A stretch of 64,000 nt of DNA, from positions 124,001-188,000 of the forward strand of contig NZ_JNXG01000018.1 of NCBI RefSeq assembly GCF_000717025.1, in the 5' to 3' direction. Below, piece after piece: positions 12,567-44,513 of the stretch (positions are counted from its first letter, which is position 1; each line of letters begins with the position of its first letter). The translations under genes and the position numbers were made by a program. This DNA comes from Streptomyces atroolivaceus (GTDB taxonomy: Bacteria; Actinomycetota; Actinomycetes; Streptomycetales; Streptomycetaceae). The notes under the pieces were generated by a model. That model saw only the letters and a program-made list of their open reading frames with translations, made no database searches and was not told the origin of the DNA.

Positions 12567-12580
12567 TGACAACGTTGTCC
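12567..12580. promoter_or_regulatory. LacI-type operator before the GH92 gene
   Basis: TGACAACGTTGTCC, with a perfect 12-bp palindrome at 12568-12579, lies 26 bp before the GH92 start. It has the same AACGTT core and flanks as sites before both GH2 genes, the oxygenase gene and the ABC transporter. CG-centred palindromes of this kind are the usual targets of LacI-family repressors, two of which are encoded nearby. Confidence 0.7.
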
Positions 12581-12605
12581 CTCAATGCCGGAGGTATCCG
12601 AGAAC

Positions 12606-15041
12606 ATGCCCTCCAGACCGTCCGCGGCCCGGCGTCTCGTCGCGCGGGCCGCCGCGATCACGCTCACCGGCGCGCTGGCCGGCGCCGTCCTGCCGCCGGC
12701 CGCCCAGGCCGACGCGCTCGTCACGCGGCCCACCGCCTACGTGGATCCGATGATCGGCACGGCGAACGGCGGCAACACCTACCCCGGCGCGGTCCGGCCG
12801 TACGGCATGATCGCCTGGTCGCCCACCAGCACCACGGGTGACCAGACGAGCACCGGGGCGGCCAACGGTTACGAGTACGGGGTCACCCGGATGCGCGGAC
12901 TGAGCCTCACGCACGTGAACGGAGCCGGGTGCAACCCCGGAGCCGCCGGCGACGTCCCGATCATGCCGTTCGTCGGCGATGTCACGTCCTCACCGTCCGC
13001 CGACACCAAGGACGCGGTCTACGCGTCCGGCTTCTCGCACGACAACGAACGTGCCGTGCCCGGCCGTTACACCGTCGGCCTGGACTCCGGCGCCACCGCC
13101 GACCTGGCCGTGAGCGAGCGTGCCGGTGTGGCCGACTTCAGTTTCCCGGCGGACGAGCCGGCCAACCTGCTGTTCAGGGTGTCCAACTCCCTCAACGGCA
13201 GCGAGGACGCCGAGATCGAGATCGACACCGCGCACCGTAAGGTGACCGGTTCGGTGCTCACCGGAGCGTTCTGCGGCCGGCGCGCCAACGGCGGCACCAA
13301 CAACCGCAAGAGCTACTACCGGCTCTACTTCAGCGCCTCCTTCGACCGCGACTTCGCCACCACGGGTACCTGGCGCGACAGCACCCTCACTCCGGGGGCG
13401 ACCAGCGCGAGCGGTGGTGAGGGTTACGCCACCGGGGCGGACCGCGCCGGGCGGGGATCCGGCGGCTACGTCGGGTTCGACACCTCGGCCGACGACGACG
13501 TCCGTATGCGGATCGGGATCTCCTACGTGAGCCAGGCCGGTGCCGAGGCCAACCTCCGCAAGGAGATCACCCCACGGGCGAGCGTCGACGACGTGGCCCG
13601 GGCGGGGTCCGCCGCCTGGGACCGGGAGCTCGCCTCCGTGCGCGTCGGCGGCGGCGGCGAGGCGCAGCGCACCTCGTTCTACACCGCGCTGTACCACTCA
13701 CTGATGCAGCCGAATCTGATCAGTGACACCGACGGCCGCTACCCCGGCATGGACGGGAAGCCGCACCGCGTGACGCGCGGTCAGAAGGCTCAGTACAGCA
13801 ACTTCTCCGGCTGGGACCAGTACCGCGCTCAGATCCAGCTGCTCGCCCTCCTCAAACCGAGGATCGCGGGCGACTTCGCCCAGTCGCTGTTCAACTTCGC
13901 CCGGCAGAACGACGGCGTCTGGGACCGTTGGGTTCACGTCAACGGCGCCACGCACGTGATGACGGGCGATCCCACGGCCGCCACCCTCGCCACGTTCTAC
14001 GCGATGGGTGTACGCAACTTCGACTACGAAGGGGCCTTCGACTCCCTGGCCCGCCAGGCCACGGTGCCCCACCCGGACGGTCTGTCCGACGCCGGATGCC
14101 CCGGCCAGTGCACCGGTCAGCGGCCCAACCTCGCCCAGTACCTGGAATCCCACTACGCGGCCCACGACGTCTGCCACTGCTGGGGAGGTGCCGCCGAGAC
14201 GCTCGAGGACGCGGTCGCCGACGCGGCGCTCGGCCGGTGGGCCCGGCTGCTCGGGCGTGACGAGGAGGCCGCCGCCTTCGAGGAGCGCGGCCTCTGGTGG
14301 CGCAACGTGTTCAACCCCGAGGCCGGCGACGGAGCGGGGACCACCGGCTACATCCAGGCGAGGAACCTCGACGGCTCCTGGGTGACCCCCTTCAGTCCGG
14401 GCAGCGACCGGGGCTTCGCGCAGGGAACCAGCGCCACCTACACCTGGATGGTCCCGCAGGACGTGCAGGGCCTGGCCGAGTCGATGGGCGGCCGGGAGGT
14501 GGCGGCGAAGCGGCTGGACGGCTTCTTCCACAAGGCGGACGGTTCCTGGTCGGTCAAGGGCGGTGACGCGCTGCGTTACGACCCGACCAACGAGCCGGGC
14601 ATTCATGCCCCTTGGCTGTACAACGCGCTGGGGCAGCCCTGGAAGACCCAGGAGACCGTACGTGAGATCGTGAACACGGTCTACGGGACCGGCCCGCGCG
14701 GACTGCCCGGCAACGACGACCTCGGAACGATGTCGGCCTGGTACGTCTTCGCCGCCCTCGGTGTGTACCCGCAGACGCCGGGCAGCGCCACCATGCTGCT
14801 CGGGGCGCCGCTCTTCCCGACCGCGCTGCTGGACCGGCCGCAGGGCGGGGACATCCGCATCAGCGCGCCGCAGGCCGATGCCACACATCCGTACATCGAC
14901 GCGGTGAAGGTCGACGGGCGGGCGAGTGACAGGTCCTGGACGGACGCCCGACTGGTCACCCGGGGAGGATCGCTGAGCTACCGGCTCGCCGACCGCCCGA
15001 ACACGTCCTGGGCCACAGGACCTGCGGGTCTTCCGCGGTAG
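12606..15041 (+). CDS. secreted GH92 alpha-mannosidase
   Basis: An 811-residue exported glycoside hydrolase of family 92, calcium-dependent inverting exo-alpha-mannosidases. Residues 1-35 are a signal peptide ending QADA. The family opening YVDPMIGTANGGNTYPGAVRP follows. Catalytic residues are visible as Glu663 in PTNEPGIH (general acid) and Asp704/Asp705 in PGNDDLGTMSAWY (base region). Substrates in the family are alpha-1,2/1,3/1,6-mannans and N-glycans. ATG 12606 is used with GGAGG about 11 bases upstream; ATG 12585 is in frame but overlaps that site. A palindromic operator sits in the promoter, and two overlapping hairpins follow the gene. Confidence 0.95.
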   Translation: MPSRPSAARRLVARAAAITLTGALAGAVLPPAAQADALVTRPTAYVDPMIGTANGGNTYPGAVRPYGMIAWSPTSTTGDQTSTGAANGYEYGVTRMRGLSLTHVNGAGCNPGAAGDVPIMPFVGDVTSSPSADTKDAVYASGFSHDNERAVPGRYTVGLDSGATADLAVSERAGVADFSFPADEPANLLFRVSNSLNGSEDAEIEIDTAHRKVTGSVLTGAFCGRRANGGTNNRKSYYRLYFSASFDRDFATTGTWRDSTLTPGATSASGGEGYATGADRAGRGSGGYVGFDTSADDDVRMRIGISYVSQAGAEANLRKEITPRASVDDVARAGSAAWDRELASVRVGGGGEAQRTSFYTALYHSLMQPNLISDTDGRYPGMDGKPHRVTRGQKAQYSNFSGWDQYRAQIQLLALLKPRIAGDFAQSLFNFARQNDGVWDRWVHVNGATHVMTGDPTAATLATFYAMGVRNFDYEGAFDSLARQATVPHPDGLSDAGCPGQCTGQRPNLAQYLESHYAAHDVCHCWGGAAETLEDAVADAALGRWARLLGRDEEAAAFEERGLWWRNVFNPEAGDGAGTTGYIQARNLDGSWVTPFSPGSDRGFAQGTSATYTWMVPQDVQGLAESMGGREVAAKRLDGFFHKADGSWSVKGGDALRYDPTNEPGIHAPWLYNALGQPWKTQETVREIVNTVYGTGPRGLPGNDDLGTMSAWYVFAALGVYPQTPGSATMLLGAPLFPTALLDRPQGGDIRISAPQADATHPYIDAVKVDGRASDRSWTDARLVTRGGSLSYRLADRPNTSWATGPAGLPR

Positions 15042-15133: not shown

Positions 15134-15154
15134 AATTTTCTATCGTTGAAAATT
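15134..15154. promoter_or_regulatory. operator-like palindrome before the PA14/GH2 gene
   Basis: AATTTTC and GAAAATT form 7-bp arms around TATCGTT. The central 14 bases (15138-15151, TTCTATCGTTGAAA) line up with the AACGTT-centred operators of the neighbouring genes. It is the most A+T-rich spot in this gap and lies 108 bp before the chosen GH2 start. Confidence 0.6.
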
Positions 15155-15261
15155 CTGCGTGCACGACCGTTGTCAGGTGTTTGAGGCTGTGGCTCAATGT
15201 TCGACTATGTGCAGTGCTCCGCGGTCAGGGGCACTCCGGCTTCTTCGACGAGGACGACGCC

Positions 15262-18200
15262 TTGATACGACAACTAGCCCGCCCCCGCACACTTCTGAGA
15301 ACACTCGCCTGCACGGCGGCGCTGCTGCTCCCCGTGGGGGCCACCCTGGTCCCGGCCGCCGCCGCGGCTCCCGCCGAAGGCGCTGCCGCCTCCTCGGCGG
15401 CCGCGGCGAAGGATCCCTCCACGGAGGTGCACGGCCTCAAGGGCGAGTACTTCGCCATGTCCGCACCCGGCGCCCGCGACTTCGCGAAGCTCGGCGCGGT
15501 GGCGCTCGACCCCGACATCAACTTCCCGGGGCTGACGGGGGCGTTCGAGTCGGCCACCGGAAAGACCGAACACACCACCGCCCGCTGGACGGGGCAGATC
15601 GAGGCCCCGGAGGACGGCGAGTACACCTTCGCCGCCATCGGCGACAACGGCTTCCGGCTCTTCGTCGACGACAAGCCGGTCATCGACCACTGGGAGCCGG
15701 ACTGGGACAAGGAGCAGACCAGCGCGCCGGTGTCCCTGAAAGCCGGTGAACCGCACACGTTCCGGCTGGAGATGTTCCAGGACACCGGCGGGGCGAACAT
15801 GTTCCTGCGCTGGTCGAGCGCGAAGCTCGCCAAGCAGATCGTGCCGGAGTCCGCCTTCACCCCGCCGGCCGACTTCGAGGTCTACCCGGTCGGGCTGAGC
15901 GTCGCCGGGAACGGGCTGAAGCTGCAGGCGGCGTTCGACCACGAGGTCAGCGGCATCGAGGACGTGAAGGACCACCTCACCATCGAGGCGGACACCACGC
16001 CGATGCCCGTCAAGTCGGTCGCCGGCGTGCCCGGCAACCGCAAGGCGCTCGTCGTCACCCTGGGCGCGGCTGTCCAGAAGGGCCAGCAGGTCAAGTTCGT
16101 GTACGACGGTGAAGCCGGCCTGAAGAACGGCGACGAGACCGTCCCGGAGATCAGCCGCAGGGCGAAGAACCTCTCCACGCACCGGCTGCTCACCCCGTGG
16201 GGCGAAAAGGTCGACCACAAGAACCCGATGCCCGAGTACCCCCGTCCGCAGCAGGTGCGCGACGACTGGAAGAACCTCAACGGACCGTGGGAGTTCGCCG
16301 GGGCCGAGGCCGGCGAGAAGCCCGTCTTCGGCAAGAAGCTCGACGAGCGCATCACCGTGCCGTACCCCGTCGAGTCCCAGCTCTCCGGGCTCGAGCGCCA
16401 CGAAGACCACATGTTCTACCGCAAGCTCGTCACGGTGCCGAAGAGCTGGTCGGTCGGCAAGCGGAGCAGCGACGACCGCCTGAAGCTCAACTTCGGCGCC
16501 GTCGACTACCAGGCGAGGGTCTGGGTCAACGGCAAGCAGGTCGCCGAGCACACCGGGGGCTACACCGCCTTCAGTGCCGACATCACCGATGCTCTCAAGG
16601 GCCACGGGCCCCAGGAGATCGTGGTCGCCGTCACCGACACCACGGGACCCGACCAGCCCACGGGCAAGCAGTCCGCCAACCCCAGCGGCATCTTCTACAC
16701 CGCGTCCTCCGGTATCTGGCAGACCGTCTGGATGGAGCCCGTCGCTCCGGCCGCCGTCGACTCCCTGAAGACCACCCCGGACATCGACAAGGGCCGGCTC
16801 GCCCTGACGGTCAACTCCGAGGACGCCTCCAGGTCCGCCCGGGTCACCGCGGTCGCCCGCGACAGGAAGGGCAAGGTCGTCGGCACCGTCACCGGCCCGG
16901 CCAACAGCGAGCTGAGCCTCCCGGTCGCCAGGCAGCACCTGTGGACGCCGGACGACCCGTACCTGTACGACCTGGAGGTCACCCTCAGGGACGGCCGCTC
17001 GAAGGACACCGTCGACAGCTACTTCGGCATGCGCTCCTTCGGTGTCGCCAAGGTCGGCGGATACCAGAAGCTGGTGCTCAACGGGAAGCCGTTCTTCTCC
17101 CTCGCCCAGCTCGACCAGGGCTTCTACCCCGACGGCCTGAACACGGCGCCCAGCGACGACGCCCTGCTCTTCGACCTGAAGACCCAGAAGGACCTCGGCT
17201 TCAACTCCGTCCGCAAGCACATCAAGGTCGAGCCCGCACGCTGGTACCACCACGCGGACCAGCTGGGTCTCCTGGTGTGGCAGGACTTCGTCTCCGGCAA
17301 CATCACGGGCGAGAAGGGCCAGAAGGCCTTCCTCGACCAGGGCGCCGAGATGATGGAGCAGCTGCACAACTACCCCTCCATCGGCGCCTGGATCGTCTTC
17401 AACGAGGGCTGGGGTGAGTGGGACCGCATCGAGACCGGCAAGATCACCGAGAAGGTGCAGGCCGCCGACCCCTCGCGCGTCGTCAGCGCCCACAGCGGTG
17501 TCAACTGCTGCAACTCCAAGGGGGACTCCGGCAAGGGCGACATCATCGACCACCACGACTACAACAACACCGACCCGGCCTTCCCCGACGAGACGCGTGC
17601 CGCGATCGACGGTGAGCACGGCGGCTTCACCCTGCGGATCCCCGGCCGGATGTGGCCCGGTGCGCCCACCGCGATCTACAGCGGTGTCGCGGACAAGGAC
17701 GCCCTGACCGCCAAGTACGTCGACAACACACGCACGTACTACCTGGAGGCCGCCGGCGCCGAACTCTCCGGCTCCGTCTACACCCAGGTGACCGACCTGG
17801 AGAACGAGCTCAACGGTCTCTGGACGTACGACCGCCGCGAGATCAAGGTCGACCCCGCCAAGGTGCGGAAGATCAACCAGGAGGTCATCGCCGCCGGCGC
17901 CGCCGCGGGCGAGCGGGACACGGTCAAGGGTGGCGGCGCCTGGTCACTCGACGAGAACAAGGGCACCGAGGCTGCCGACAGCGGCCCGAACCGCAAGGAC
18001 CTCACCCTCTCCGAGGGCACGTCCTGGACGGCCGGAGTGCGGGGCTCGGCGCTGAAGTTCAACGGTGACGGTCAGTACGCCGAGACCGACGGACCGGTCG
18101 TCGACACCACCGGCGACTACACCGTGTCGGCCTGGGCGTCGCTCGACGCGCTTCCCGGCAACTACGCCACCGTCGTCAGCCAGGACGGCCGGCGCCAGGA

Positions 18201-18540
18201 GAACCCGTTCTACCTCCAGTACGGACAGGGCGGTTTCGCCTTCTCCACCCCGGGCGCCCACCGCGCCCGGGCCGAGATGAAGCCTGAGCTCGGCCGGTGG
18301 TACCACCTGGTCGGCGTCCGCAGCGGTGACGAGATCAAGCTGTACGTCGACGGCGAGCTCGCCTCCACCGCGGCGGCCGGTGCCGCCGATGTCAGCACCG
18401 GCGGGCTGTCCGTGGGCCGCGCCAAGTGGTCGGGCGCCGACACCGATTTCTGGAACGGCTCCGTCGACCAGGTGAAGGTGTACGACAAGGCACTCACCGG
18501 CCAGGAGGTGACCGCGCTCCACGACGGCGAACAGCCGTAG
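15262..18540 (+). CDS. secreted GH2 glycoside hydrolase with PA14 and LamG domains
   Basis: A multidomain exported enzyme of about 1092 residues. A signal peptide ends near residue 37. A PA14 domain (about 50-190, with RWTGQIEAPEDGEYTF) is a sugar-binding module. A GH2 core follows: sugar-binding sandwich (KNLNGPWEF onward), immunoglobulin-like domain and TIM barrel. The acid/base is Glu715 (FNEGWGEW) and the nucleophile probably Glu785 (DGEHGG). A LamG domain (about 910-1090) ends the protein. GH2 includes beta-galactosidases, -mannosidases, -glucuronidases and -galactofuranosidases; sequence alone does not fix which. TTG 15262 is chosen because the signal peptide starts there and GAGGAC precedes it. 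An operator lies upstream. Confidence 0.9.
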   Translation: MIRQLARPRTLLRTLACTAALLLPVGATLVPAAAAAPAEGAAASSAAAAKDPSTEVHGLKGEYFAMSAPGARDFAKLGAVALDPDINFPGLTGAFESATGKTEHTTARWTGQIEAPEDGEYTFAAIGDNGFRLFVDDKPVIDHWEPDWDKEQTSAPVSLKAGEPHTFRLEMFQDTGGANMFLRWSSAKLAKQIVPESAFTPPADFEVYPVGLSVAGNGLKLQAAFDHEVSGIEDVKDHLTIEADTTPMPVKSVAGVPGNRKALVVTLGAAVQKGQQVKFVYDGEAGLKNGDETVPEISRRAKNLSTHRLLTPWGEKVDHKNPMPEYPRPQQVRDDWKNLNGPWEFAGAEAGEKPVFGKKLDERITVPYPVESQLSGLERHEDHMFYRKLVTVPKSWSVGKRSSDDRLKLNFGAVDYQARVWVNGKQVAEHTGGYTAFSADITDALKGHGPQEIVVAVTDTTGPDQPTGKQSANPSGIFYTASSGIWQTVWMEPVAPAAVDSLKTTPDIDKGRLALTVNSEDASRSARVTAVARDRKGKVVGTVTGPANSELSLPVARQHLWTPDDPYLYDLEVTLRDGRSKDTVDSYFGMRSFGVAKVGGYQKLVLNGKPFFSLAQLDQGFYPDGLNTAPSDDALLFDLKTQKDLGFNSVRKHIKVEPARWYHHADQLGLLVWQDFVSGNITGEKGQKAFLDQGAEMMEQLHNYPSIGAWIVFNEGWGEWDRIETGKITEKVQAADPSRVVSAHSGVNCCNSKGDSGKGDIIDHHDYNNTDPAFPDETRAAIDGEHGGFTLRIPGRMWPGAPTAIYSGVADKDALTAKYVDNTRTYYLEAAGAELSGSVYTQVTDLENELNGLWTYDRREIKVDPAKVRKINQEVIAAGAAAGERDTVKGGGAWSLDENKGTEAADSGPNRKDLTLSEGTSWTAGVRGSALKFNGDGQYAETDGPVVDTTGDYTVSAWASLDALPGNYATVVSQDGRRQENPFYLQYGQGGFAFSTPGAHRARAEMKPELGRWYHLVGVRSGDEIKLYVDGELASTAAAGAADVSTGGLSVGRAKWSGADTDFWNGSVDQVKVYDKALTGQEVTALHDGEQP

Positions 18541-18767: not shown

Positions 18768-19787
18768 TCACACCGGGGTGACCGAGGCTCCGGTGCTCTC
18801 CCGGGCCAGCACACGGTGCGGGACCACGATGCGGCGGGCGGGGAGCGCGGCCACCGGGCCGAAGACGCGCTCGGTCAGACACTGCACCGCGCGTTCGGCG
18901 ATCTGCTCCCGGTCCGGGGCGACCGTGGTGAGGGAGGGGGCGGCGAACCTGCCGTCCTCGATGTCGTCGAATCCCATCAACGCGAGGTCCTCCGGCACCC
19001 GCACGCCCTGTTCGGCCGCCACGCGCAGTGCACCGAGGGCGAGTTCGTCGCTGAAGCAGAAGACGGCGTCGGGGGGCTCGGGCAGAGCCAGAAGTTCACG
19101 CAGGGCCCGCGCCCCTTCCGCCCGGTGCAGGTCGGCCACCTCCACCTCGGCCACCGGACTCAGCCCCGCCTCCCGCAGCCCTTGACGGAAGCCTTCGGCG
19201 CGCAGTTCGGCCGTGCCGTGGCCCAGTCCGGACTGCAGGCCGATCGCTGCGATGCGCCGACGGCCCCGGGAGACGAGATGCCGAGCGGCATCGCGCGCCG
19301 CCCCCACGTTGTCCAGAGCCACGTGGTCGATGGACCCGTCCGGCTCCAGCTCGCCCAGGACGACCAGGGGCAGGCCCCCGGCGAGCGAGGCCAGATCGGC
19401 GGGGGACGTCGACCACGGGCTGATGATCATCCCGTCGACCTGGTGTCCCTCGGACCCGTCGAGAAGACGCCGCTCCAGATCCGCCCGCCCCCCGGTCCGC
19501 TCCAGGAGTACCGTCCAACCGCGCCCCTGCGCGGCGTCGATGAGGAGGCCGGCCAGTGCGCCGAAGTAGGGGGAATGGATCTCGGGCACGACCACCCCGA
19601 TGAGTCCGGTGCGTCCCTGCCGGAGGTTACGGGCGGCGAGGTTGGGGCGGTACCCCAGCTCTTCCACCGCCGCCATGACGCGGGCGCGCGTCGCCGGGGC
19701 CACTGCCGCGGCGTTGCTCACGACATTGGAGACGGTCCGGACGGACACTCCGGCGAGCGCCGCGACGTCCTTGAGTCTCGCTGTCAC
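18768..19787 (-). CDS. LacI-family transcriptional regulator
   Basis: A 339-residue LacI/GalR regulator. The helix-turn-helix is at the N-terminus (LKDVAALAGVSVRTVSNVV), with the hinge segment PNLAARNLRQGRTGLIGVV, and a periplasmic-binding-protein-like effector domain to the end (VDGMIISPW, LALMGFDDIEDGRFAAPSLTT). The recognition helix (TVSNVV) matches that of the second LacI protein at 28609, and both genes lie among AACGTT-centred operators. GTG 19787 is used: AGGAG is nine bases upstream and the HTH starts at once. It is divergent from the oxygenase gene with triple operator-like sites between. Likely a repressor released by a sugar; the ligand is unknown. Confidence 0.93.
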   Translation of the reverse strand: MTARLKDVAALAGVSVRTVSNVVSNAAAVAPATRARVMAAVEELGYRPNLAARNLRQGRTGLIGVVVPEIHSPYFGALAGLLIDAAQGRGWTVLLERTGGRADLERRLLDGSEGHQVDGMIISPWSTSPADLASLAGGLPLVVLGELEPDGSIDHVALDNVGAARDAARHLVSRGRRRIAAIGLQSGLGHGTAELRAEGFRQGLREAGLSPVAEVEVADLHRAEGARALRELLALPEPPDAVFCFSDELALGALRVAAEQGVRVPEDLALMGFDDIEDGRFAAPSLTTVAPDREQIAERAVQCLTERVFGPVAALPARRIVVPHRVLARESTGASVTPV

Positions 19788-19889
19788 AGTCGGTGGGCTC
19801 CTGTCCCTCTGGGGGCGGGCGGTCGGTGGCCCGTGCCCTCTGCGCTGTGCACCGTAACAGCCCTGTCGGATCACGGTGTGCACTTCCTC

Positions 19890-19923
19890 TTGCCACGTTG
19901 ATTGCAACGTTGCAACATTGACG
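19890..19923. promoter_or_regulatory. cluster of three overlapping LacI-type operators
   Basis: The central site is a perfect 14-bp palindrome TTGCAACGTTGCAA (19902-19915). Two degenerate copies flank and overlap it: TTGCCACGTTGATT at 19890-19903 and TTGCAACATTGACG at 19910-19923. They lie between the divergent LacI gene (start 19787) and the oxygenase gene (start 20004). This is the best match to the shared motif in the window and suggests tight, cooperative control. Confidence 0.75.
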
Positions 19924-20003: not shown

Positions 20004-20831
20004 ATGCCCGAAGCCGCCCTCACCCCGCAGCTCGACGCGGCCGTTCAGGACCTGTACACCGCCGGCGTCACCGCATGCCGGGGCGCCTTCACCCCGCAGT
20101 GGGCCGACGCGATGCGCGAGGACATCGAAGGAGCCTTCACCGAGGCGCGCGGCCGGGAGGGCGGGGCGGTCGGCCGGGGACCCCACCGCTTCTACGTCGA
20201 GATCCACCCCGAGCAGCTGCGGGGCTTCGTGGACCTGGTCGACCATCCGTGGGTTCGCTCGGTGTCCGAGGCCGTCCTGGGGCCCGACTACCGCATAGTC
20301 GAGCTGGGCTTCGACGTCCCGCTGGCCGGAGCGGTGAACCAGCCCTGGCACCGGGACTTCCCCATGCCGGACGCCACCCGGCACCGGCGCCGGCTGACGT
20401 CCCTCGCCTTCAACCTCACCGCAGTGGACACGCGTGACGACATGGGTCCCTTCGAGATCGCGCCGGGCACCCAGTGGGACGACGACGCCCGGTTCGGCCA
20501 CGCGATGTTCCCGCCCCGCGACACCTACTCTCGCTACGCCGCACTCGCCGAGCGCAAGTATCCGCGGCGTGGGGACATCTCGGCTCGGTCCGCCCTGACG
20601 ATCCACCGGGGCACGGCCAACCACTCGTCCGAATCCCGGCCGGTCCTGGTGCTCGGCATCGACGCACCGGGGGCCGGTAACGACGCGCAGCACGACATGG
20701 CGGTGACCAGGGAGTACTGGGCCTCTCTGCCGGGGCGGGTCCGGGCCCATCTGCACTGTCCGGTCGTGGACGAGCTCAGCCCCATCGTCCAGAGGCACAC
20801 CATCGAGGGCCTGGTGATGGGCGAGGCCTGA
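20004..20831 (+). CDS. phytanoyl-CoA dioxygenase (PhyH)-like Fe(II)/2-oxoglutarate oxygenase
   Basis: A 275-residue cytoplasmic protein of the PhyH-like double-stranded beta-helix family. The iron ligands are plausibly His and Asp in QPWHRDFPMP and the distal His in TIHRGTANHS, with the Arg shortly after (SRPVLVL) for 2-oxoglutarate. Such enzymes hydroxylate or desaturate small molecules. Its substrate is unknown, but the gene stands between glycosidase genes behind the strongest copy of their shared operator, so a carbohydrate or carbohydrate-derived substrate is conceivable. ATG 20004 follows AAGGGA. A long bidirectional terminator lies after the gene. Confidence 0.85.
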   Translation: MPEAALTPQLDAAVQDLYTAGVTACRGAFTPQWADAMREDIEGAFTEARGREGGAVGRGPHRFYVEIHPEQLRGFVDLVDHPWVRSVSEAVLGPDYRIVELGFDVPLAGAVNQPWHRDFPMPDATRHRRRLTSLAFNLTAVDTRDDMGPFEIAPGTQWDDDARFGHAMFPPRDTYSRYAALAERKYPRRGDISARSALTIHRGTANHSSESRPVLVLGIDAPGAGNDAQHDMAVTREYWASLPGRVRAHLHCPVVDELSPIVQRHTIEGLVMGEA

Positions 20832-23243: not shown

Positions 23244-23349
23244 AGTGGGACTCCTTCGGGAGAAGCCCCCGCACCGGCCGGCGCGGGGGCGTGACATCAG
23301 GTCAGAGCAGCTGCCAGAGATGGTCGGCGGTGACGGCGCGACAACTTAC

Positions 23350-23363
23350 TTGCAACGTTGGAA
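23350..23363. promoter_or_regulatory. LacI-type operator before the GH2-AbfB gene
   Basis: TTGCAACGTTGGAA differs at one position from the perfect palindrome at 19902. It probably controls the minus-strand GH2 gene. Confidence 0.68.
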
Positions 23364-23527: not shown

Positions 23528-23541
23528 ATATAACGTTGTAA
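23528..23541. promoter_or_regulatory. LacI-type operator before the furanose ABC operon
   Basis: ATATAACGTTGTAA keeps the AACGTTG core of the shared motif and a partly symmetrical flank. It lies about 170 bp before the binding-protein start. Confidence 0.6.
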
Positions 23542-36026: not shown

Positions 36027-38891
36027 GTGCGGGCCAAGGACGCCGCGGGCAACGTCTCCGGCGCCAGCAACACCGTGACGCGCAACGGGTCGACGAGCGG
36101 CGCCTCCGACCTCGCCGTCTCCAAGCCGATCACCGCGTCCTCGGTGGTCCACACGTTCGTCGCGGCCAACGCCAACGACAACTCCCTCAGCACGTACTGG
36201 GAGGGCGCGGGCGGCAGCTACCCCAACACGCTGACGGTCGAGCTGGGTGCCAACGCCGACACGGAGAGCGTCGTCGTCAAGCTGAACCCCGACAGCAGCT
36301 GGGGAGCGCGCACCCAGAACATCCAGGTACTCGGACGGGAGCAGGACGCCACCTCGTTCACGAGCCTGGCCGCCGCCAAGGACTACGCGTTCAGCCCGGC
36401 GACGGGCAACACGGTGACGATCCCGGTCACCGCCCGGGTGGCCGACGTCCAGCTGAAGTTCACCTCCAACAGCGGATCCGGCGCAGGTCAGGTCGCCGAG
36501 TTCCAGGTGCTGGGCGCTCCGGCCCCCAACCCGGACCTGCAGGTCACGGCGGTCGCCGCCTCGCCCTCGGCCCCCGTGGAATCAGACCCCGTCACCCTGT
36601 CGGCCACCGTCCGCAACTCCGGTGCGGTCTCCTCTCCCGCCGGGAAGCTGGACTTCGAGCTCGGCGGATCCAAGGTCGCCACCGCTTCGGTGGGCGCTCT
36701 CGCCGCAGGCGCCTCCGCCCAGGTCGCCTCGTCCATCGGAGCCCGCGACGCGGGCAGTTACACGCTCGGGGCGGTCGTCGACCCGGCAGACGAGATCATC
36801 GAACAGAACGAGACGAACAACCGCTTCACCGGCGGCACCCCGCTGGTCGTGAAGCCGGTTTCCAGCTCCGACCTCGTGGCGAGCGCGGTCACGACCTCCC
36901 CGTCGGGCCCCTCGAACGGCGACACGGTCACCTTCTCCGTCGCCGTGAAGAACCAGGGCTCCGTGGCGTCCGCGAGCGGCAGCCACGGGATCACCCTCAG
37001 CCTGATCGACTCCAAGGGGGCCACGGTCAAGTCCCTCACCGGCGCGCACAACGGCGCCATCGCCGCGGGTTCCACGACGTCGCCGGTCTCCCTGGGGACC
37101 TGGACGGCTGCCAACGGCTCGTACACGGTGAAGGTGGTGCTCGCCGAGGACGCCAACGAACTGCCGGTGAAGCGCGCGAACAACACCAGCACCGAATCGC
37201 TCTTCGTCGGGCGCGGCGCCGACATGCCGTACGACATGTACGAGGCGGAGGACGGTGTCACCGGGGGCGGGGCGAAGGTCGTCGGCCCCAACAGGACCGT
37301 CGGTGACATCGCGGGCGAGGCGTCGGGCCGCAAGGCCGTGACGCTCGACAGCACCGGAAACTACGTCGAGTTCACGACGCGGGCGCCCACCAACACCCTG
37401 GTCACCCGGTTCTCCATCCCGGACTCCGCGGGCGGCGGTGGCATCGACTCGAAGCTGAACGTCTACGTGGACGGTACCTTCCTCAAGGCGATCGACCTCA
37501 CCTCGAAGTACGCCTGGCTGTACGGGAACGAGACCGGACCGGGCAACGCCCCCGGCTCGGGAGCGCCCAGGCACATCTACGACGAGGCGAACATCATGCT
37601 GGGGAAGACCGTCCCGGGCGGCAGCAGGATCCGGCTGCAGAAGGACGCGGCCAACACCAGCACGTACGCGATCGACTTCGTCAGCCTGGAGCAGGTCGCC
37701 CAGAAGGCGAACCCCGACCCCGCCCGGTACGCCGTGCCCGCGGGCTCCACCCACCAGGACGTGCAGAACGCCCTGGACAAGGTCCGGATGGACACCACCG
37801 GAAGCCTGGTGGGCGTCTACCTCCCGGCCGGTGACTACTCCACCTCGAGCAAGTTCCAGGTCTACGGCAAGGCCGTGAAGGTGGCGGGAGCCGGGCCCTG
37901 GTTCACGCGGTTCCACGCGCCGTCCACACAGGACAACACCGACATCGGATTCCGTGCGGAGGCCAGTGCGAAGGGTTCGTCGTTCTCCGACTTCGCGTAC
38001 TTCGGCAACTACACGTCCCGGATCGACGGGCCGGGCAAGGTGTTCGACTTCTCCAACGTCTCGGACATCGTGATCGACAACATCTGGAACGAGCACATGG
38101 TGTGCCTCTACTGGGGGGCCAACACCGACAACGTCACCATCAAGAACTCCCGGATCCGCAACATGTTCGCCGACGGCATCAACATGACCAACGGCTCCAC
38201 GGACAACCACGTCACGAACAACGAGGCGCGGGCCACCGGGGACGACAGCTTCGCGCTGTTCTCGGCGATCGACGCCGGCGGCGCGGACATGAAGAACAAC
38301 GTGTACGAGAACCTGACGTCGATCCTCACGTGGCGGGCGGCGGGAGTGGCCGTGTACGGCGGCTACGACAACACCTTCCGCAACATCCACATCGCCGACA
38401 CCCTGGTGTACTCCGGGATCACTGTGAGTTCGCTGGACTTCGGCTACCCGATGAACGGGTTCGGGACCGGCCCCACGGCGATCGAGAACGTCTCGGTCGT
38501 GCGGGCCGGCGGTCACTTCTGGGGGACGCAGACCTTCCCCGGGATCTGGCTGTTCTCGGCCTCCAAGGTCTTCCAGGGCATACGGATCTCGAACGTGGAC
38601 ATCGTCGACCCGACGTACAGCGGGATCATGTTCCAGACGAACTACGTGGGAGGGCAGCCGCAGTTCCCGATCAAGGACACGGTGCTCACCGACATCTCGG
38701 TCTCGGGCGCACGCAGGAGCGGCGACGCCTTCGACGCGAAGTCGGGCTTCGGGCTGTGGGCGAACGAGATGCCGGAGGCCGGCCAGGGGCCTGCTGTCGG
38801 TGAGGTCACCTTCAACGGACTGAAGTTCAGCGGCAATGCCCAGGACGTGAAGAACACCACCTCCACCTTCAAGATCAACATCAACCCGTAG
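36027..38891 (+). CDS. GH87 alpha-1,3-glucanase (mutanase/mycodextranase family), catalytic 3' part
   Basis: The 3' part of the gene that starts at 34800; it has no signal peptide or ribosome binding site of its own. Order: end of an FN3 domain, a third discoidin-like domain (about residues 30-170), two CARDB-type domains (about 175-395), a CBM6-like domain opening YEAEDGV (about 405-565), and a right-handed beta-helix to the end. The helix carries ADGIN (Asp at 38172-38174) and GDDSF (Asp pair at 38241-38246), spaced 23 and 24 residues apart exactly as the three catalytic aspartates of characterised GH87 enzymes. GH87 endo-enzymes cut alpha-1,3-glucan of fungal walls or dental biofilm. Downstream transporter and alpha-glucosidase genes fit this substrate. 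Confidence 0.85.
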   Translation: MRAKDAAGNVSGASNTVTRNGSTSGASDLAVSKPITASSVVHTFVAANANDNSLSTYWEGAGGSYPNTLTVELGANADTESVVVKLNPDSSWGARTQNIQVLGREQDATSFTSLAAAKDYAFSPATGNTVTIPVTARVADVQLKFTSNSGSGAGQVAEFQVLGAPAPNPDLQVTAVAASPSAPVESDPVTLSATVRNSGAVSSPAGKLDFELGGSKVATASVGALAAGASAQVASSIGARDAGSYTLGAVVDPADEIIEQNETNNRFTGGTPLVVKPVSSSDLVASAVTTSPSGPSNGDTVTFSVAVKNQGSVASASGSHGITLSLIDSKGATVKSLTGAHNGAIAAGSTTSPVSLGTWTAANGSYTVKVVLAEDANELPVKRANNTSTESLFVGRGADMPYDMYEAEDGVTGGGAKVVGPNRTVGDIAGEASGRKAVTLDSTGNYVEFTTRAPTNTLVTRFSIPDSAGGGGIDSKLNVYVDGTFLKAIDLTSKYAWLYGNETGPGNAPGSGAPRHIYDEANIMLGKTVPGGSRIRLQKDAANTSTYAIDFVSLEQVAQKANPDPARYAVPAGSTHQDVQNALDKVRMDTTGSLVGVYLPAGDYSTSSKFQVYGKAVKVAGAGPWFTRFHAPSTQDNTDIGFRAEASAKGSSFSDFAYFGNYTSRIDGPGKVFDFSNVSDIVIDNIWNEHMVCLYWGANTDNVTIKNSRIRNMFADGINMTNGSTDNHVTNNEARATGDDSFALFSAIDAGGADMKNNVYENLTSILTWRAAGVAVYGGYDNTFRNIHIADTLVYSGITVSSLDFGYPMNGFGTGPTAIENVSVVRAGGHFWGTQTFPGIWLFSASKVFQGIRISNVDIVDPTYSGIMFQTNYVGGQPQFPIKDTVLTDISVSGARRSGDAFDAKSGFGLWANEMPEAGQGPAVGEVTFNGLKFSGNAQDVKNTTSTFKININP

Positions 38892-39282
38892 CAGGCCGGG
38901 ACGGCGCGGAGGGGTGCTCCCCGGGGCTCCGGAAAGGGGTCCCGGGGCGCCCGGTGTCCGCGTAACCTCTTGCAATCAGAAGTCCGCCTCTTGCGGACCT
39001 CGGGCGCGGAGTCGGCGATGAGCCCCTCCCTGCCGACCGGGACGTGGGCGGTCGGGCGGGTCGTGCGGCGCGCCCGACTCGTCCGGGATGAGTCGGGAGG
39101 AGTGGCTCCATCGAGGCGCCGGGCTACTCCAGCCCGGCGCCTCACCGCATGCGGAGTGCTGTCAAACATTTACCAAATCTGCGCGAGATATTGCGCTTAC
39201 TTGTCGCCGGTGGTTGAGTGTGCCGCGCCCCGGCAGACAGCCGGCCGAGGCCTTCCGCGCTCATGCCCGAAGGGGACCACCG
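38892..39282. other. intergenic region before the MalE-type gene
   Basis: No gene is seen in these 391 bases. A terminator hairpin lies at 39114-39144. After it the DNA turns A+T-rich (39160-39210) and includes GCGCGAGATATTGCGC (39182-39197), a partly symmetrical 16-base element (6 of 8 pairs) that may be an operator of the transporter promoter. A smaller hairpin GTCCGC/GCGGAC is at 38983-38999. Confidence 0.5.
39114..39144 (+). terminator. hairpin terminator between GH87 and the ABC operon
   Basis: A perfect 13-bp stem (39114-39126 with 39132-39144) with a 5-base loop. It separates GH87 transcription from the transporter promoter. Confidence 0.75.
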
Positions 39283-40695
39283 ATGAGAAGTGCTGGGTTT
39301 CGCCGTACCCGCCGTGCCTCCGCGGCCGCCGTCGTCACCGCGCTCGCCCTGACCGCCCTTGCCTCCTGCGGCACGAGCAGCAGCGGCGGCGGGGACGACG
39401 ACTCCGGCAGTGGCTCGTCCGATCCGTCGGCGCCGCTCGACCCGAAGGCCGAGGTGACGCTGTCGATCGACTGCATGCCGCCGGCCGCGAAGGCCGCGGA
39501 GCTGCGCGAGTGGAACGAGGACGTCAAGACGTTCAACAAGAAGTACCCGAACGTCAGGATCAACGGGAAGTCGACGCCCGGACAGTGCCTGGAGCCGCCG
39601 CGCTTCACGGCCATGCTCAAGGGCAAGTCGCAACCGGACGTCTTCTACGCGTACTTCACCGACCTCCAGCAGGTGCTGGACAACGACGGTGCCGAGGACA
39701 TCTCCGCCTACGTCAACGACACATCCGTACCCGCTCTCAAGGACATCCAGCCCCAGGTGCTCGACGTCGCCCGCAAGGACGGCAAGCTCTACGCGCTGCC
39801 TACCAGCAACTACACCATGGGTCTCATGATCAACCGGAAACTGTTCACGCAGGCCGGGCTGGATCCTGACACCCCGCCGGCGACCTGGGAGGAGGTCCGC
39901 GCCGCGAGCAGGAAGATCGCGGCGCTCGGCAAGGGCATCGCCGGTTTCGGCGAGTACAGCGCCGGCAACAACGGCGGCTGGCACTTCACCGCCGCACAGT
40001 ACGGCCTGGGCGGGGACGTCGTGGACGCGAGCGGCAGGAAGGCCGCCTTCAACGACGACAAGGGCAAGCAGGTCCTCCAGCAACTGCACGACATGCGCTG
40101 GGAGGACGACAGCATGGGACGGACCCAGCTGCTGAAGTGGGGCGATCTGCAGAAGCAGATAGCCACCGACAAACTCGGGATGTTCCTCGCCGCGCCCGAC
40201 GACATCACGTACATGGTGCAGCAGCTCGGCGCGACGTACGAGAACTTCGGCATGGGGCCGATCCCCGGCGCCGAGGCCACTCTGTTCGGCGGAAACAACT
40301 ACATGGTCAAGAAGGGCAGTTCGCCCGACAAGATCAAGGCCGCCGTCGCCTGGCTGAACTTCCAGAACCTCACACCGAAGAAGGGGCAGTTCGACTGGGG
40401 CCGCAGGAAGGCCGACAACCTGCCCGTCGGGCTTCCCCAGCCCAACTTCTTCCTCGGTGAGAGCAAGAAGGCGGACGACGCCGAGCGTGTCACCCACGCC
40501 ACGATGCCCGTCGAGAACTTCAGGGCCTTCATGGACAACCCCGTCCAGGGGAAGGCCGAGCCGCCGAAGGCCCAGGAGATCTACAAGATCCTCGACAACG
40601 CGATGTCCGCCGTGCTGACCAACAAGGACGCCGACATCGACAAGCTGCTCGACACCGCCGAGCAGCAGGTCAACCAGGTCCTGGCGAACCAGTAG
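39283..40695 (+). CDS. sugar ABC transporter substrate-binding lipoprotein (MalE type)
   Basis: A 470-residue lipoprotein: signal peptide with lipobox ALASC (Cys about residue 29), an acidic Ser/Gly linker, and a family 1 extracellular solute-binding domain. Visible family features are LSIDCMPPAAKAAELREW at the start and the hinge region YALPTSNYTMGLMINRKLF. Its neighbours are two MalFG-type permeases and a GH13 alpha-glucosidase, and the gene upstream is an alpha-1,3-glucanase, so nigero- or malto-oligosaccharides are likely ligands. ATG 39283 follows AAGGGGA. No ATPase gene is nearby; Streptomyces MalEFG-type systems commonly share the MsiK ATPase encoded elsewhere. Confidence 0.93.
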   Translation: MRSAGFRRTRRASAAAVVTALALTALASCGTSSSGGGDDDSGSGSSDPSAPLDPKAEVTLSIDCMPPAAKAAELREWNEDVKTFNKKYPNVRINGKSTPGQCLEPPRFTAMLKGKSQPDVFYAYFTDLQQVLDNDGAEDISAYVNDTSVPALKDIQPQVLDVARKDGKLYALPTSNYTMGLMINRKLFTQAGLDPDTPPATWEEVRAASRKIAALGKGIAGFGEYSAGNNGGWHFTAAQYGLGGDVVDASGRKAAFNDDKGKQVLQQLHDMRWEDDSMGRTQLLKWGDLQKQIATDKLGMFLAAPDDITYMVQQLGATYENFGMGPIPGAEATLFGGNNYMVKKGSSPDKIKAAVAWLNFQNLTPKKGQFDWGRRKADNLPVGLPQPNFFLGESKKADDAERVTHATMPVENFRAFMDNPVQGKAEPPKAQEIYKILDNAMSAVLTNKDADIDKLLDTAEQQVNQVLANQ

Positions 40696-40783: not shown

Positions 40784-41746
40784 ATGTCGGCCCCCACCCT
40801 GTCCACCGGGAAGGCGAGCGCACCGCCACCCGGGCACCACCACCCCACCACCGGGCCGGACTCCGCCCGCGAGGAGTTCGTGCGCGCCCTGCGCCGCAAC
40901 ATCACGGCGCACGGCTTCCTGATCGGAGCCGTCCTCTGCTTCTCCTTCTTCTCCTGGTATCCGATGGTCAGGGAATTCCTCCTGGCCTTCCAGAAGACCG
41001 AGGACGGCAGGACGACCTGGGCCGGCTGGTCCAATCTGAGCTACGTCTTCAACGACCCCGCGTTCTGGCAGGCCTGGCGCAACACCCTGCTCTTCACCGT
41101 CCTGGCGCTCCTGCTGGGCTTCGCCGTCCCGTTCGTCGTGGCCGTCGTGCTCAACGAGTTCCGGCACGCGCAGGGATACCTGCGCCTGCTGGTCTACCTG
41201 CCCGTCATGCTGCCGCCGGTCGCCTCCGTACTGCTCTTCAAGTACTTCTACGACCCCGGCTACGGACTCTTCAACCGCATCCTGGAATTCCTCCACCTGC
41301 CCGCCCAGCAATGGCTCCAGGACCCCGGCACCTCCATGCTGTCCGTCGTCATCGCCTCCACCTGGATGAACATGGGAGGGGCCACACTGATCTACCTCGC
41401 CGCACTCCAGGGCATCCCCGGCGAGCTGTACGAGGCGGCCGAGCTCGACGGCGCCGGGCTGTTCCGCAAGATCTGGCACGTCACCATCCCGCAGACCCGT
41501 CTCATCCTGTCGCTCCTGCTGCTCATGCAGATCATCGCGACGATGCAGGTCTTCACCGAGCCGTTCCTGCTCACCAACGGCGCCGGCCCCGAAGGCTCCA
41601 CCACGACCGTCGTCTACCTCATCTACCAGTACGCCTTCAACTTCAACAACTACGGCGGAGCGGCGGCCCTCGGCCTCCTCCTGCTGGTCGTACTCGCGGG
41701 CTTCTCCGCGGTGTACGTACGCCTCAGCCGCAGCAGTGAAGACTAG
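40784..41746 (+). CDS. sugar ABC transporter permease (MalF type)
   Basis: A 320-residue membrane protein with six predicted transmembrane segments after a soluble N-terminus of about 45 residues. The binding-protein-dependent transport motif EAAELDGAGLFRKIWHVTIP (about residues 219-238) contacts the ATPase. It belongs to the CUT1 family of oligosaccharide importers and acts with the following permease. CGAGGAG precedes the ATG. Confidence 0.93.
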   Translation: MSAPTLSTGKASAPPPGHHHPTTGPDSAREEFVRALRRNITAHGFLIGAVLCFSFFSWYPMVREFLLAFQKTEDGRTTWAGWSNLSYVFNDPAFWQAWRNTLLFTVLALLLGFAVPFVVAVVLNEFRHAQGYLRLLVYLPVMLPPVASVLLFKYFYDPGYGLFNRILEFLHLPAQQWLQDPGTSMLSVVIASTWMNMGGATLIYLAALQGIPGELYEAAELDGAGLFRKIWHVTIPQTRLILSLLLLMQIIATMQVFTEPFLLTNGAGPEGSTTTVVYLIYQYAFNFNNYGGAAALGLLLLVVLAGFSAVYVRLSRSSED

Positions 41747-41761: not shown

Positions 41762-42709
41762 ATGGCATCGAGCACGCTTGTCTCCCGGCGCGGAACCCGC
41801 GGACGGAAGGCCCGCCGCCGGGACACGGGCCAGGGCCGCCAGCGGACCCTCATCTCACCGGCCCAGCTCGGCCGGCCACGGGGAAGGGCTGTCTACTGGA
41901 TCGTCTTCGCCCTGGTGGCGCTGGGCTTCACCCTCGTGTTCCTCGGCCCCCTCTACTGGATGGTGACCGGCGGCCTCAAGACCACCCAGGAAGTCGTACA
42001 GAGCCCGCCCACCGCCTTCCCCTCCTCGATCCACACGGAGAACTACTCCCAGGCGTGGAACGTGATGGACCTGGCCCAGCTGCTCCTCAACACCCTCTAC
42101 TACGCGTTCGGAGCGCTCGCCTTCCAGCTCGTCCTCGACGTGGCCGCCGCCTACTCGCTGTCCAGACTGCGGCCGGTCTTCGGCAGGGCCATCCTCGGCA
42201 TGATGCTCGCCACCCTCATGATCCCGGCGACCGTCCTCGTCGTGCCGCAGTACCTCACGGTCCTCGACGTGCCGATCTTCGAACGCAACCTGCTCAACTC
42301 GCCCTGGGCGATCTGGCTGCCGTCGGTCACCAACGCCTTCAACATCTTCCTGCTGAAGCGGTTCTTCGACTCCATACCGGGCGAACTCCTCGATGCCGCG
42401 GCCATGGACGGCGCCTCACCCCTGTGCACCCTGCGCTCCATCGTCCTGCCGATCTCCCGGCCGATCCTCGGGGTCGTCTCCATCTTCGCGGTCGTCGGGG
42501 TCTGGAAGGACTTCCTCTGGCCCATGCTGACCCTGCCCGACCCGGGCAAGCAGACCCTCAACGTCGGCATCTACTCGCTGTCCAACGGGGTCCCGCAGAA
42601 CGTCCTCATCGCCGCGCTCACCATCGCGTCCGTACCGACGCTGCTCGTCTTCCTGCTCTTCCAGCGCAACATCATGAGCGGTCTCACCGCGGGCGGCCTG
42701 AAGGGTTGA
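41762..42709 (+). CDS. sugar ABC transporter permease (MalG type)
   Basis: A 315-residue membrane protein, partner of the preceding permease, with a basic N-terminal 45 residues and six membrane segments. The ATPase-contact motif is DAAAMDGASPLCTLRSIVLP (about residues 212-231). The gap to the upstream permease is 15 bp, so they are one operon. Confidence 0.93.
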   Translation: MASSTLVSRRGTRGRKARRRDTGQGRQRTLISPAQLGRPRGRAVYWIVFALVALGFTLVFLGPLYWMVTGGLKTTQEVVQSPPTAFPSSIHTENYSQAWNVMDLAQLLLNTLYYAFGALAFQLVLDVAAAYSLSRLRPVFGRAILGMMLATLMIPATVLVVPQYLTVLDVPIFERNLLNSPWAIWLPSVTNAFNIFLLKRFFDSIPGELLDAAAMDGASPLCTLRSIVLPISRPILGVVSIFAVVGVWKDFLWPMLTLPDPGKQTLNVGIYSLSNGVPQNVLIAALTIASVPTLLVFLLFQRNIMSGLTAGGLKG

Positions 42710-42878
42710 CGCATGGTGCTCCCCGTTCGGATCAGGCGGGGCTCCCTGATCCGGTCCGACCGGACGGGAGACCCCTCCGAACCACCGCCTTCCACCAGCA
42801 CTCCGCCGCCGGCCCTCCCGCCGCACGCCCCGCGTCCGGGCCGGGGGCGGAGTACCTCCTGCCCGAAAGGAACGCCAC

Positions 42879-44513
42879 GTGGCAGCCAACCGTCCGACCG
42901 AGGCCACCGCACCGTGGTGGCGCGACGCCGCCATCTACCAGATCTACGTACGCAGCTTCGCCGACGGCGACGGAGACGGCACAGGTGATCTCGCGGGAGT
43001 ACGGGCCAGGTTGCCCTACCTGGTGGAACTGGGCGTCGACGCCCTGTGGTTCACCCCCTGGTACCTCTCCCCCCTGGCCGACGGCGGCTACGACGTGGCC
43101 GACTACCGGGCCATCGATCCCGCCTTCGGGAACCTCGCCGAGGCGGAGAAGCTCATCGCCGAAGCCCGTGATCTGGGCATCCGCACCCTCATCGACATCG
43201 TCCCCAACCATGTCTCCGACCGGCACAGCTGGTTCGAGGCGGCGCTGGCCGCCGCACCCGGCAGTCCCGAACGCGACCTCTTCCACTTCCGGGAGGGACG
43301 CGGCGACCACGGGGAGCTCCCGCCCAACAACTGGGTCTCCGAATTCGGCGGCACCCCGTGGACCAGGGTCGACGACGGCCAGTGGTACCTGCACCTGTTC
43401 GCCCCGGGCCAGCCCGACCTCAACTGGGCGCACCCCGCGGTCCGTCAGGAGCACGAGGACGTGCTGCGCTTCTGGTTCGAACGGGGCGTCGCCGGCGTGC
43501 GGATCGACTCGGCGGCCCTGCTGGCCAAGGACCCGGCCCTGCCCGACTTCGCCGAGGGCACCGACCCCCACCCGTACGTCGACCGCGACGAACTCCACGA
43601 CATCTACCGCTCGTGGCGCGCCATCGCCGACCGGTACGACGGCATCTTCGTCGGCGAGGTCTGGCTCCCCGACTCCGAACGCTTCGCCCGCTACCTGCGG
43701 CCGGACGAGCTGCACACCGCCTTCAACTTCAACTTCCTGGCCTGCCCCTGGGACGCCGGGCTGCTGCGCTCCGCGATCGACGACACGCTCGCCGAGCACG
43801 CCCCCGTGGGAGCACCCGCCACCTGGGTGCTGTGCAACCACGACGTGACCCGCACGGTGACCCGGTACGGACGTGAGGCGACCGGCTTCGACTTCGCGGC
43901 CAAGGTCTTCGGCACGCCGACCGACCTGGAGCTTGGCACCCGCAGGGCGCGGGCCGCCGCCCTGCTCTCGCTGGCGCTGCCGGGCGCCGTCTACCTCTAT
44001 CAGGGTGAGGAACTCGGACTGCCGGAGGCCGACATCCCCCGCGACCGGATCCAGGACCCCATGCACCTGCGCTCCGGGGGCACCGACCCCGGGCGGGACG
44101 GCTGCCGGGTGCCCCTGCCCTGGTCCGCCGACGAGCCCGGCGCGGGCTTCGGATCCTCGGCCGAACCATGGCTGCCCCAGCCGGCGGGCTGGTCCGCGTA
44201 CGCCGCCGACGGGCAGAGCACCGACCCCGGCTCCATGCTCACCCTCTACCGTGAGGCACTGCGACTGCGCCGCGGCGAACCGGGTTTCGCCGCCGCCCCG
44301 GGCGAGACCGCCGAGGGCCGGCTGGACTGGCTGCCCTCGGCACCGGGCGTCCTCGCCTTCCGGCGGACTCACGGACTGATCTGTGTCGTCAACCTTTCGG
44401 GGAGCCCGGCCCAGCTCCCCGGCCACGACGAGATCCTGCTGACCAGCGCCCCGCTGGAACCCTCCGGTCTGCTGCCCGACGATACGGCGGCCTGGCTGCG
44501 AGGGACGCGTTAG
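42879..44513 (+). CDS. GH13 alpha-glucosidase (intracellular)
   Basis: A 544-residue alpha-amylase-superfamily enzyme without a signal peptide. Catalytic residues are Asp210 (GVRIDSAA, nucleophile), Glu260 (FVGEVWLP, acid/base) and Asp322 (LCNHDVTR, stabiliser). The N-terminal WWRDAAIYQIYVRSF and the DIVPNHVSD region are typical of oligo-alpha-glucosidases of the GH13 subfamily 30 kind found in actinobacteria. Such enzymes release glucose from maltose, isomaltose, nigerose and similar sugars. Its place after an oligosaccharide importer suggests it hydrolyses the imported sugar. CCCGAAAGGAACG precedes ATG 42879, 169 bp after the permease, so it may be in the same transcript. Confidence 0.94.
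   Translation: MAANRPTEATAPWWRDAAIYQIYVRSFADGDGDGTGDLAGVRARLPYLVELGVDALWFTPWYLSPLADGGYDVADYRAIDPAFGNLAEAEKLIAEARDLGIRTLIDIVPNHVSDRHSWFEAALAAAPGSPERDLFHFREGRGDHGELPPNNWVSEFGGTPWTRVDDGQWYLHLFAPGQPDLNWAHPAVRQEHEDVLRFWFERGVAGVRIDSAALLAKDPALPDFAEGTDPHPYVDRDELHDIYRSWRAIADRYDGIFVGEVWLPDSERFARYLRPDELHTAFNFNFLACPWDAGLLRSAIDDTLAEHAPVGAPATWVLCNHDVTRTVTRYGREATGFDFAAKVFGTPTDLELGTRRARAAALLSLALPGAVYLYQGEELGLPEADIPRDRIQDPMHLRSGGTDPGRDGCRVPLPWSADEPGAGFGSSAEPWLPQPAGWSAYAADGQSTDPGSMLTLYREALRLRRGEPGFAAAPGETAEGRLDWLPSAPGVLAFRRTHGLICVVNLSGSPAQLPGHDEILLTSAPLEPSGLLPDDTAAWLRGTR

Follow-up and report, generated by a model that had tools for sequence, protein, structure and literature searches.

A stretch of 64,000 nucleotides from Streptomyces atroolivaceus (contig NZ_JNXG01000018.1, positions 124,001 to 188,000; the whole stretch is called the window below) carries, between 12.5 and 30.8 kilobases (kb), a group of genes that is probably a galactofuranose-utilisation locus aimed at galactofuranose-bearing mannans. 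The target polymer would most likely be the galactomannan and galactomannoproteins of filamentous fungi. In the proposed pathway two exo-beta-D-galactofuranosidases with predicted secretion, GH2a (PA14-type) and GH2b (AbfB-type), would free galactofuranose from side chains; a GafABCD importer would take the sugar up as furanose, before ring-opening to the pyranose; and a cytoplasmic GalM would pass it to a galactose-metabolism pool encoded elsewhere. The locus would be inducible, the regulator LacI2 repressing the importer and GH2b through AACGTT-core operators, and the GH92 enzyme would act on the mannan part, probably not as an ordinary exo-alpha-mannosidase.

The source genome comprises 8.2 megabases (Mb) in 105 contigs, and the named close protein matches were from Streptomyces. 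Window proteins were assigned to families with Pfam and NCBIfam; secretion was judged by eye alone, from signal-like N-termini. Each of the gene families named in the original prediction, which had read this region and the genes downstream as one island for the use of two mould-wall polymers, galactomannan and alpha-1,3-glucan, was recovered in this way. Beyond that list, two LacI-family regulators, a PhyH-family gene and an upstream RGL11 rhamnogalacturonan lyase gene were found.

GH2b (20892..23297, - strand; GH2-AbfB by Pfam) is a predicted beta-galactofuranosidase, identical in 474 of 592 residues (80%) to the crystallised galactofuranosidase of Streptomyces JHA19 (structure 9j6n). The JHA19 enzyme, ORF1110, is specific for galactofuranose and released galactose from Aspergillus fumigatus galactomannan; it is reported to have galactofuranosidase activity and no arabinofuranosidase activity (PMC4560423). 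The residues of ORF1110 most sensitive to mutation, D423 and E464, are 41 positions apart (PMC4560423), and in 9j6n the Asp of the WQD motif and the Glu of the NEG motif are separated by 41 residues (hand count). By spacing and hand count, their likely counterparts in GH2b are D436 and E479. GH2b has two marks of a GH2_18-type galactofuranosidase: a close match to an assayed galactofuranose-specific enzyme and conservation of the mutation-sensitive residues.

GH2a (15262..18540, + strand; PA14-GH2-LamG by Pfam) is a predicted beta-galactofuranosidase. Its open reading frame (ORF) begins at 15181 (15181-18540), and the start at 15262 was placed by eye. It matched structure 9j6n with 490 bits, was 46% identical to GH2b over 586 aligned positions, and keeps both the WQD and the NEG motif. 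A PA14-type galactofuranosidase is known from JHA26, ORF0643 (PMC5391426). Two types of actinobacterial galactofuranosidase, AbfB and PA14, have been described, both reported to be active on A. fumigatus galactomannan (PMC5391426, PMC4599098, PMC4560423, PMC7278926, PMC12243196), and the window carries one of each. The assignment of galactofuranose as substrate is well founded, since assays exist for enzymes of either type from other Streptomyces.

The importer consists of a binding protein, an ATPase and two permeases in a row, all on the + strand: a YtfQ/GafA-family sugar-binding protein (23714..24799; Pfam, NCBIfam), a YtfR-family two-domain ATPase (24902..26509; Pfam, NCBIfam), a YtfT-like permease (26506..27504; Pfam) and a YjfF-like permease (27501..28541; Pfam). 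YtfQ and YtfR were the best NCBIfam families for the binding protein and the ATPase. The nearest solved structures of the binding protein were 6hyh/6hbd/6hb0 (205 bits), followed by E. coli YtfQ 2vk2 (166 bits). 6HBM and 6HBD are MSMEG_1712 with arabinofuranose and galactofuranose, and the family has been renamed GafABCD (PMC10191376). We claim that the importer of the window would work like a Gaf importer and not as a member of the E. coli equivalog. The gene for LacI2 follows (about 28609..29646, + strand, start estimated), and then that for the GalM aldose-1-epimerase, a mutarotase (29646..30743, + strand; NCBIfam).

Linkage of galactofuranosidase and importer was followed in a set of 80 loci, the best of at least 593 matches to GH2b in a search of close relatives; fractions describe this set and not all genomes, with related species counted separately. 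Flanks of up to 10 kb on each side of GH2b were read, 14 of the 80 stretches being under 20 kb. Within these flanks, 43 loci had a YtfR of at least 55% identity, and matches to all four importer genes, with at least two separate permease places, were likewise seen in 43/80. Twenty-five of the 43 importer-bearing loci were from Streptomyces and the others carried ten further genus labels (11 in all). YtfR and YtfQ were found in none of 16 control stretches, a convenience set made up of GH87 regions and others that had been retrieved for different purposes. The order and orientation of importer and GH2b vary among groups, so that their linkage has been kept or remade. LacI2 was often linked to the importer in relatives. 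Other genes of the window were seen near GH2b less widely among the 80 loci: PA14-type GH2a in 25, GalM in 14 (GalM often lies at the edge of the stretch), GH92 in 6 and PhyH in 5.

Relatives also carry, next to the galactofuranosidase, genes that point to the polymer. A GH76-family gene adjoined GH2b in 9/80 loci (ten genes; L033, L034, L040, for example at 5884-7734, L041, L043, L047, L066, L068 and L087); by clustering it was directly downstream in six, and in L087 it was part of a GH127-GH76-GH2 run. Pfam, applied to four of these genes, assigned GH76 to all four. GH76 is an endo-alpha-1,6-mannanase family, and its place beside the galactofuranosidase is an arrangement pointing to galactomannan. 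In L033, L034 and L040 the galactofuranosidase itself was preceded by a site with the GACAACGTTGTC flank found before GH92 in the window, which joins galactofuranose removal to mannan use there. With the matches to assayed galactofuranosidases, the importer in 43/80 loci and GH76 in 9/80, the galactomannan half of the original prediction is well supported. Another family, GH127-like with a ricin lectin domain, was found near GH2b in ten loci (clustering; Pfam on one member) and is absent from the window; in L091 (7280-9910) and nine other loci, in close relatives of the window's genome, such a protein lies between YtfQ and GH2b. It may be a furanosidase that acts on the opposite anomer.

Six AACGTT sites occur in the window: one inside the RGL11 gene (9018-10928); one before GH92, in the operator-like palindrome GACAACGTTGTC seen in the sequence at 12568..12579; one in the palindrome TTGCAACGTTGCAA (19902..19915) between LacI1 and PhyH; two in the divergent GH2b-YtfQ intergenic region, TTGCAACGTTGGAA on the GH2b side (23350..23363) and ATATAACGTTGTAA on the YtfQ side (23528..23541); and one at 61.4 kb. 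A degenerate operator-like site, TTCTATCGTTGAAA, precedes GH2a (15138..15151). Conservation was counted in two ways. In the looser count (windows of 450 base pairs (bp), extending to 60 bp inside the match) both GH2b-YtfQ sites were kept in 12/12 relatives whose YtfQ is at least 83% identical (L022, truncated where its locus ends, excluded), and AACGTT was present before GH92 in 5/6 orthologous upstream regions and before PhyH in 5/5. A perfect AACGTT lay upstream of GH2a in 13/25 relatives, the more distant ones, and a degenerate site of the TTCTATCGTTGAAA type stood at an equal distance from GH2a in 11 of the 12 close relatives checked. The stricter count took flank-palindromic AACGTT in the 400 bp upstream and dropped loci with under 200 bp upstream; it gave 17/43 for YtfQ, 14/79 for GH2b, 4/4 for GH92, 4/5 for PhyH, 4/25 for GH2a and 0/13 for GalM, and 74/4000 for random 400-bp windows.

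In the 8.2 Mb genome the exact TTNCAACGTTGNAA site was found twice, both times in this cluster, and the pattern TNNAACGTTGNNA gave six distinct sites, three of them in this cluster. Most likely LacI2, encoded in the importer operon, represses the importer and GH2b via these putative AACGTT-core operators. LacI1 (18768..19799, - strand, start estimated) and the PhyH-family gene (20004..20831, + strand; Pfam, start estimated) form a divergent pair around TTGCAACGTTGCAA (18768-20831) that was kept together in 5/80 loci; they are probably a second, autoregulated pair. The pairing of each regulator with its sites is a prediction from position and conservation. An ORF on the + strand at 18723-19901 was rejected as a gene, being antisense to the LacI1 gene. 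Elsewhere in the genome three further sites with a TGACAACGTTG core stand directly in front of genes for a GH92 of the Glu type, for a GH5 and for a GDSL protein (L207 9368, L208 8425 and L209 8212), perhaps marking a mannan regulon.

The GH92 gene (12585..15041, + strand; Pfam, 474 bits) had been read as a secreted alpha-mannosidase. The family holds, with N- and catalytic domains and the GNDD base motif present and a signal-like N-terminus by eye; the active site differs from the one that ordinary exo-alpha-mannosidases have. In place of the catalytic general-acid Glu the window enzyme has Gln613, which aligned to that residue in the structures of BT3990 (Glu533) and BT3965 (Glu531). The acid-to-base spacing in the solved chains, 111 and 102 residues by hand count, fits the numbering of PMC5930347 and PMC10167667. 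With Gln at the acid position AnGH92A was inactive and BT3990 strongly impaired (PMC12858847, PMC10167667). The His-Glu motif of alpha-1,2 enzymes, as described in PMC12858847, also seems by eye to be missing.

Of 121 sequences, made up of the query and 120 listed homologues, 120 have the Gln (P0111 was not readable by patterns). So do the GH92 orthologues of all six loci and four proteins, 64-70% identical, that come from two other families. Glu was found in the other 25 homologues of one alignment and, the window's own copy aside, in all 24 readable homologues of a second, where six were unreadable (L136, L150, L151 and L152, not alignable; L140 and L149, no frame read). In four genomes of another family no CcMan5-like paralogue was found; L181 and L182, the GH92 proteins read there, have Glu (both in the first alignment), and one GH92 is cut by two contig ends. 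Four stretches that hold Gln-type GH92 genes in other families contained no galactofuranosidase, and the clade is thus not specific to galactomannan. The Gln suggests that the enzyme cleaves a mannosyl-phosphate or some other unusual linkage and is not an ordinary alpha-mannosidase. CcMan5 is the one GH92 enzyme for which the literature consulted gives a linkage of another kind, Man-PO4-Man (PMC5930347). It may have Gln at the acid position as well.

Downstream of the galactofuranose locus lies a block (33.2-44.5 kb), all on the + strand, that most plausibly represents another module for fungal walls, for alpha-1,3-glucan, sometimes near the first and predicted to be independent of it. An S8 subtilase gene (33241..34422) adjoins it. 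The GH87 gene is represented by an N-terminal part with two F5/8C stretches (34713..35927) and by an alpha-1,3-glucanase catalytic part in its own open frame (36027..38891); it is followed by genes for a MalE-like binding protein (39088..40695), a MalF-like permease (40784..41746), a MalG-like permease (41762..42709) and a GH13 alpha-glucosidase-like protein (42879..44513). The GH87 alpha-1,3-glucanase of the original prediction was thus borne out in its catalytic domains and not as a single open frame. Among 13 relatives with a close orthologue, the gene was a single frame of 1,379-1,525 amino acids in 11 and in two pieces in 2 (G001, G003). The region 35830-36027 is about 92 and about 106 bp shorter than in L109, L113, L117 and L118, at the same position in each of two tandem repeats; the split may reflect an assembly loss of a kind that short reads could cause. 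Between the two modules, at 30851-31846, there are broken-looking frames that by eye resemble the start of a GTPase of the EF-G or ribosome-protection type.

Several observations weigh against a galactofuranose locus as described above. For 37/80 galactofuranosidase loci no importer was present in the stretch covered, and GH92 was near the galactofuranosidase in 6/80 loci only. Allowing up to two mismatches, TTNCAACGTTGNAA was only weakly enriched in the genome, with 19 sites versus 14 of the reversed control. The flank of the GH92 site, GACAACGTTGTC, is similar to the sites before GH92, GH5 and GDSL genes elsewhere and unlike those of GH2b and the importer; because of this match GH92 may belong to another regulon and be controlled by a general regulator of mannan use instead of LacI2. 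The importer did not reach the NCBIfam equivalog cut-offs (YtfQ 204/510 bits, YtfR 570/850 bits), and its binding protein has a Phe where the aligned MSMEG_1712 has a Trp, presumably that of the binding site, a difference that may matter. GafA proteins bind L-arabinofuranose besides galactofuranose (PMC10191376); on account of this and of the Phe, either sugar may be the ligand of the binding protein. The RGL11 pectin lyase gene upstream, and GH127-like or GH43 genes in the clusters of some relatives, would also suit plant arabinofuranosides.

These last points would fit a plant arabinan or pectin locus, RGL11 being its upstream gene, in which L-arabinofuranose is what the GH2 enzymes release and GafABCD imports. 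The GafABCD of Shewanella imports arabinofuranose in an arabinan locus (PMC10191376), and GH2 group III includes arabinofuranosidases (PMC12243196). We regard such a locus as very unlikely, given the 80% identity of GH2b to an enzyme reported to lack arabinofuranosidase activity, the lack of araBAD, GH51 and GH62 among the identified genes of the block, and the adjoining genes in nine relatives, which are GH76-family genes and not arabinanases. RGL11 recurred in 1/80 loci (L089), a count that says little, as the window's own RGL11 lies just beyond the 10 kb flank. A galactofuranose source outside the fungi, such as mycobacterial or corynebacterial galactan, O-antigens or lichen galactomannans, is improbable too, if somewhat less so. 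Galactofuranose is found in bacterial surface polymers (PMC4560423), M. smegmatis has a homologue of the importer, and the sequences identify the sugar more securely than the polymer that carries it. Against these sources, GH92 in six loci and GH76-family genes in nine, near the galactofuranosidase, favour an alpha-mannan carrier, and A. fumigatus galactomannan is a substrate of the enzymes that were assayed (PMC5391426, PMC4560423).

The polymers of both halves occur together in mould walls, which speaks for a further alternative: that the galactomannan genes and GH87-MalEFG-GH13 are one functional and regulatory mycophagy island. The two halves were compared in 15 genomes holding the galactofuranosidase, distances being taken to the nearest cluster gene on the same contig. 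A GH87 orthologue was within 25 kb in 5/15 (G001, G006, G009, G010 and, on the other side, G013), above what random placement in genomes of 6.6-9.5 Mb would give, the genomes being related and not independent. It was clearly apart in 4/15: 141 kb away on the same contig in G003, and on other contigs, too far from their ends for linkage, in G005, G011 and G015. A close orthologue was absent in 2/15 (G002, G008), one of them the source of L014, a locus with a 94% identical GH2b; in another 4/15 (G004, G007, G012, G014) the genes lay at contig ends and linkage was undecidable. The block itself, CBM32-GH87-MalE-MalF-MalG-GH13, was together in 9 of the 13 genomes with a close GH87 orthologue. AACGTT is absent from the GH87-MalEFG-GH13 half, with no site between 23.6 and 61.4 kb, and in several relatives a different inverted repeat, of the type CGCAAA-n-TTGCG and seen by eye only, is common to the promoters of GH87 and MalE. 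The halves being unlinked and independently distributed, which had been named beforehand as grounds for abandoning the island, was thus seen in part. The halves are not co-distributed in relatives, and a single dedicated locus for both polymers was not upheld: the GH87 half has no AACGTT site, stays together alone and is distributed independently. A functional island of this kind seems improbable to us, to about the same degree as a non-fungal source. GH87 was accordingly rejected as evidence for the galactomannan assignment, on its separate distribution and the missing AACGTT site, and the case warns against reading neighbouring genes of carbohydrate-active enzymes as one locus.

Mammals lack galactofuranose, and the galactomannan antigen of Aspergillus contains it. 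Streptomyces enzymes that remove it are already known. No description of a locus joining galactofuranosidase and importer was found in literature on galactofuranosidase or galactofuranose, Streptomyces and transporters, as judged from listings that leave most subscription journals outside. A conserved module of galactofuranosidase and furanose importer would offer a testable genetic system for soil bacteria feeding on mould walls, a source of further galactofuranosidases for diagnostics and a way to find a galactofuranose regulator. Anyone seeking a new GH92 activity has a clear target in the Gln-type clade. It is conceivable, if rather unlikely, that the locus represents the first recognised galactofuranose catabolic system, present in many actinomycete genera, together with a Gln-acid GH92 clade that cleaves a mannosyl-phosphate or acid-independent linkage. 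Were this true, the locus would strip the phospho-galactomannan of moulds, gaining phosphate and galactofuranose, rather than ordinary alpha-mannan.

Compared with known systems, the window GH92 shares its family with CcMan5, the mannosyl-phosphate hydrolase of Cellulosimicrobium cellulans, at low similarity (153 bits, the ninth row after eight other GH92 rows). The window GH87 has catalytic domains D1 and D2 in common with GH87 alpha-1,3-glucanases such as Flavobacterium Agl-EK14; unlike these, its reading frame is split in this assembly and it is part of a separate module. The importer has the same best families and the same four-gene row as GafABCD/YtfQRT-YjfF of E. coli, Shewanella and M. 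smegmatis (MSMEG_1712), and differs from them in lying below the equivalog cut-offs and in its linkage to galactofuranosidases; its ligand is a predicted one. The arabinan locus of Shewanella sp. ANA-3 follows the same design, secreted furanosidases with a furanose importer (PMC10191376); it serves arabinan and L-arabinofuranose, whereas the window has galactofuranosidases and no arabinose catabolism genes among those identified. GH2b and GH2a have the two domain architectures of JHA19 ORF1110 (AbfB-type) and JHA26 ORF0643 (PA14-type), although GH2a, at 1,119 amino acids (open frame) including a LamG domain, is longer than the 869 reported for ORF0643 (PMC7278926). The papers on JHA19 and JHA26 report enzymes and no locus; here both types sit with GH92, the importer and two LacI genes.

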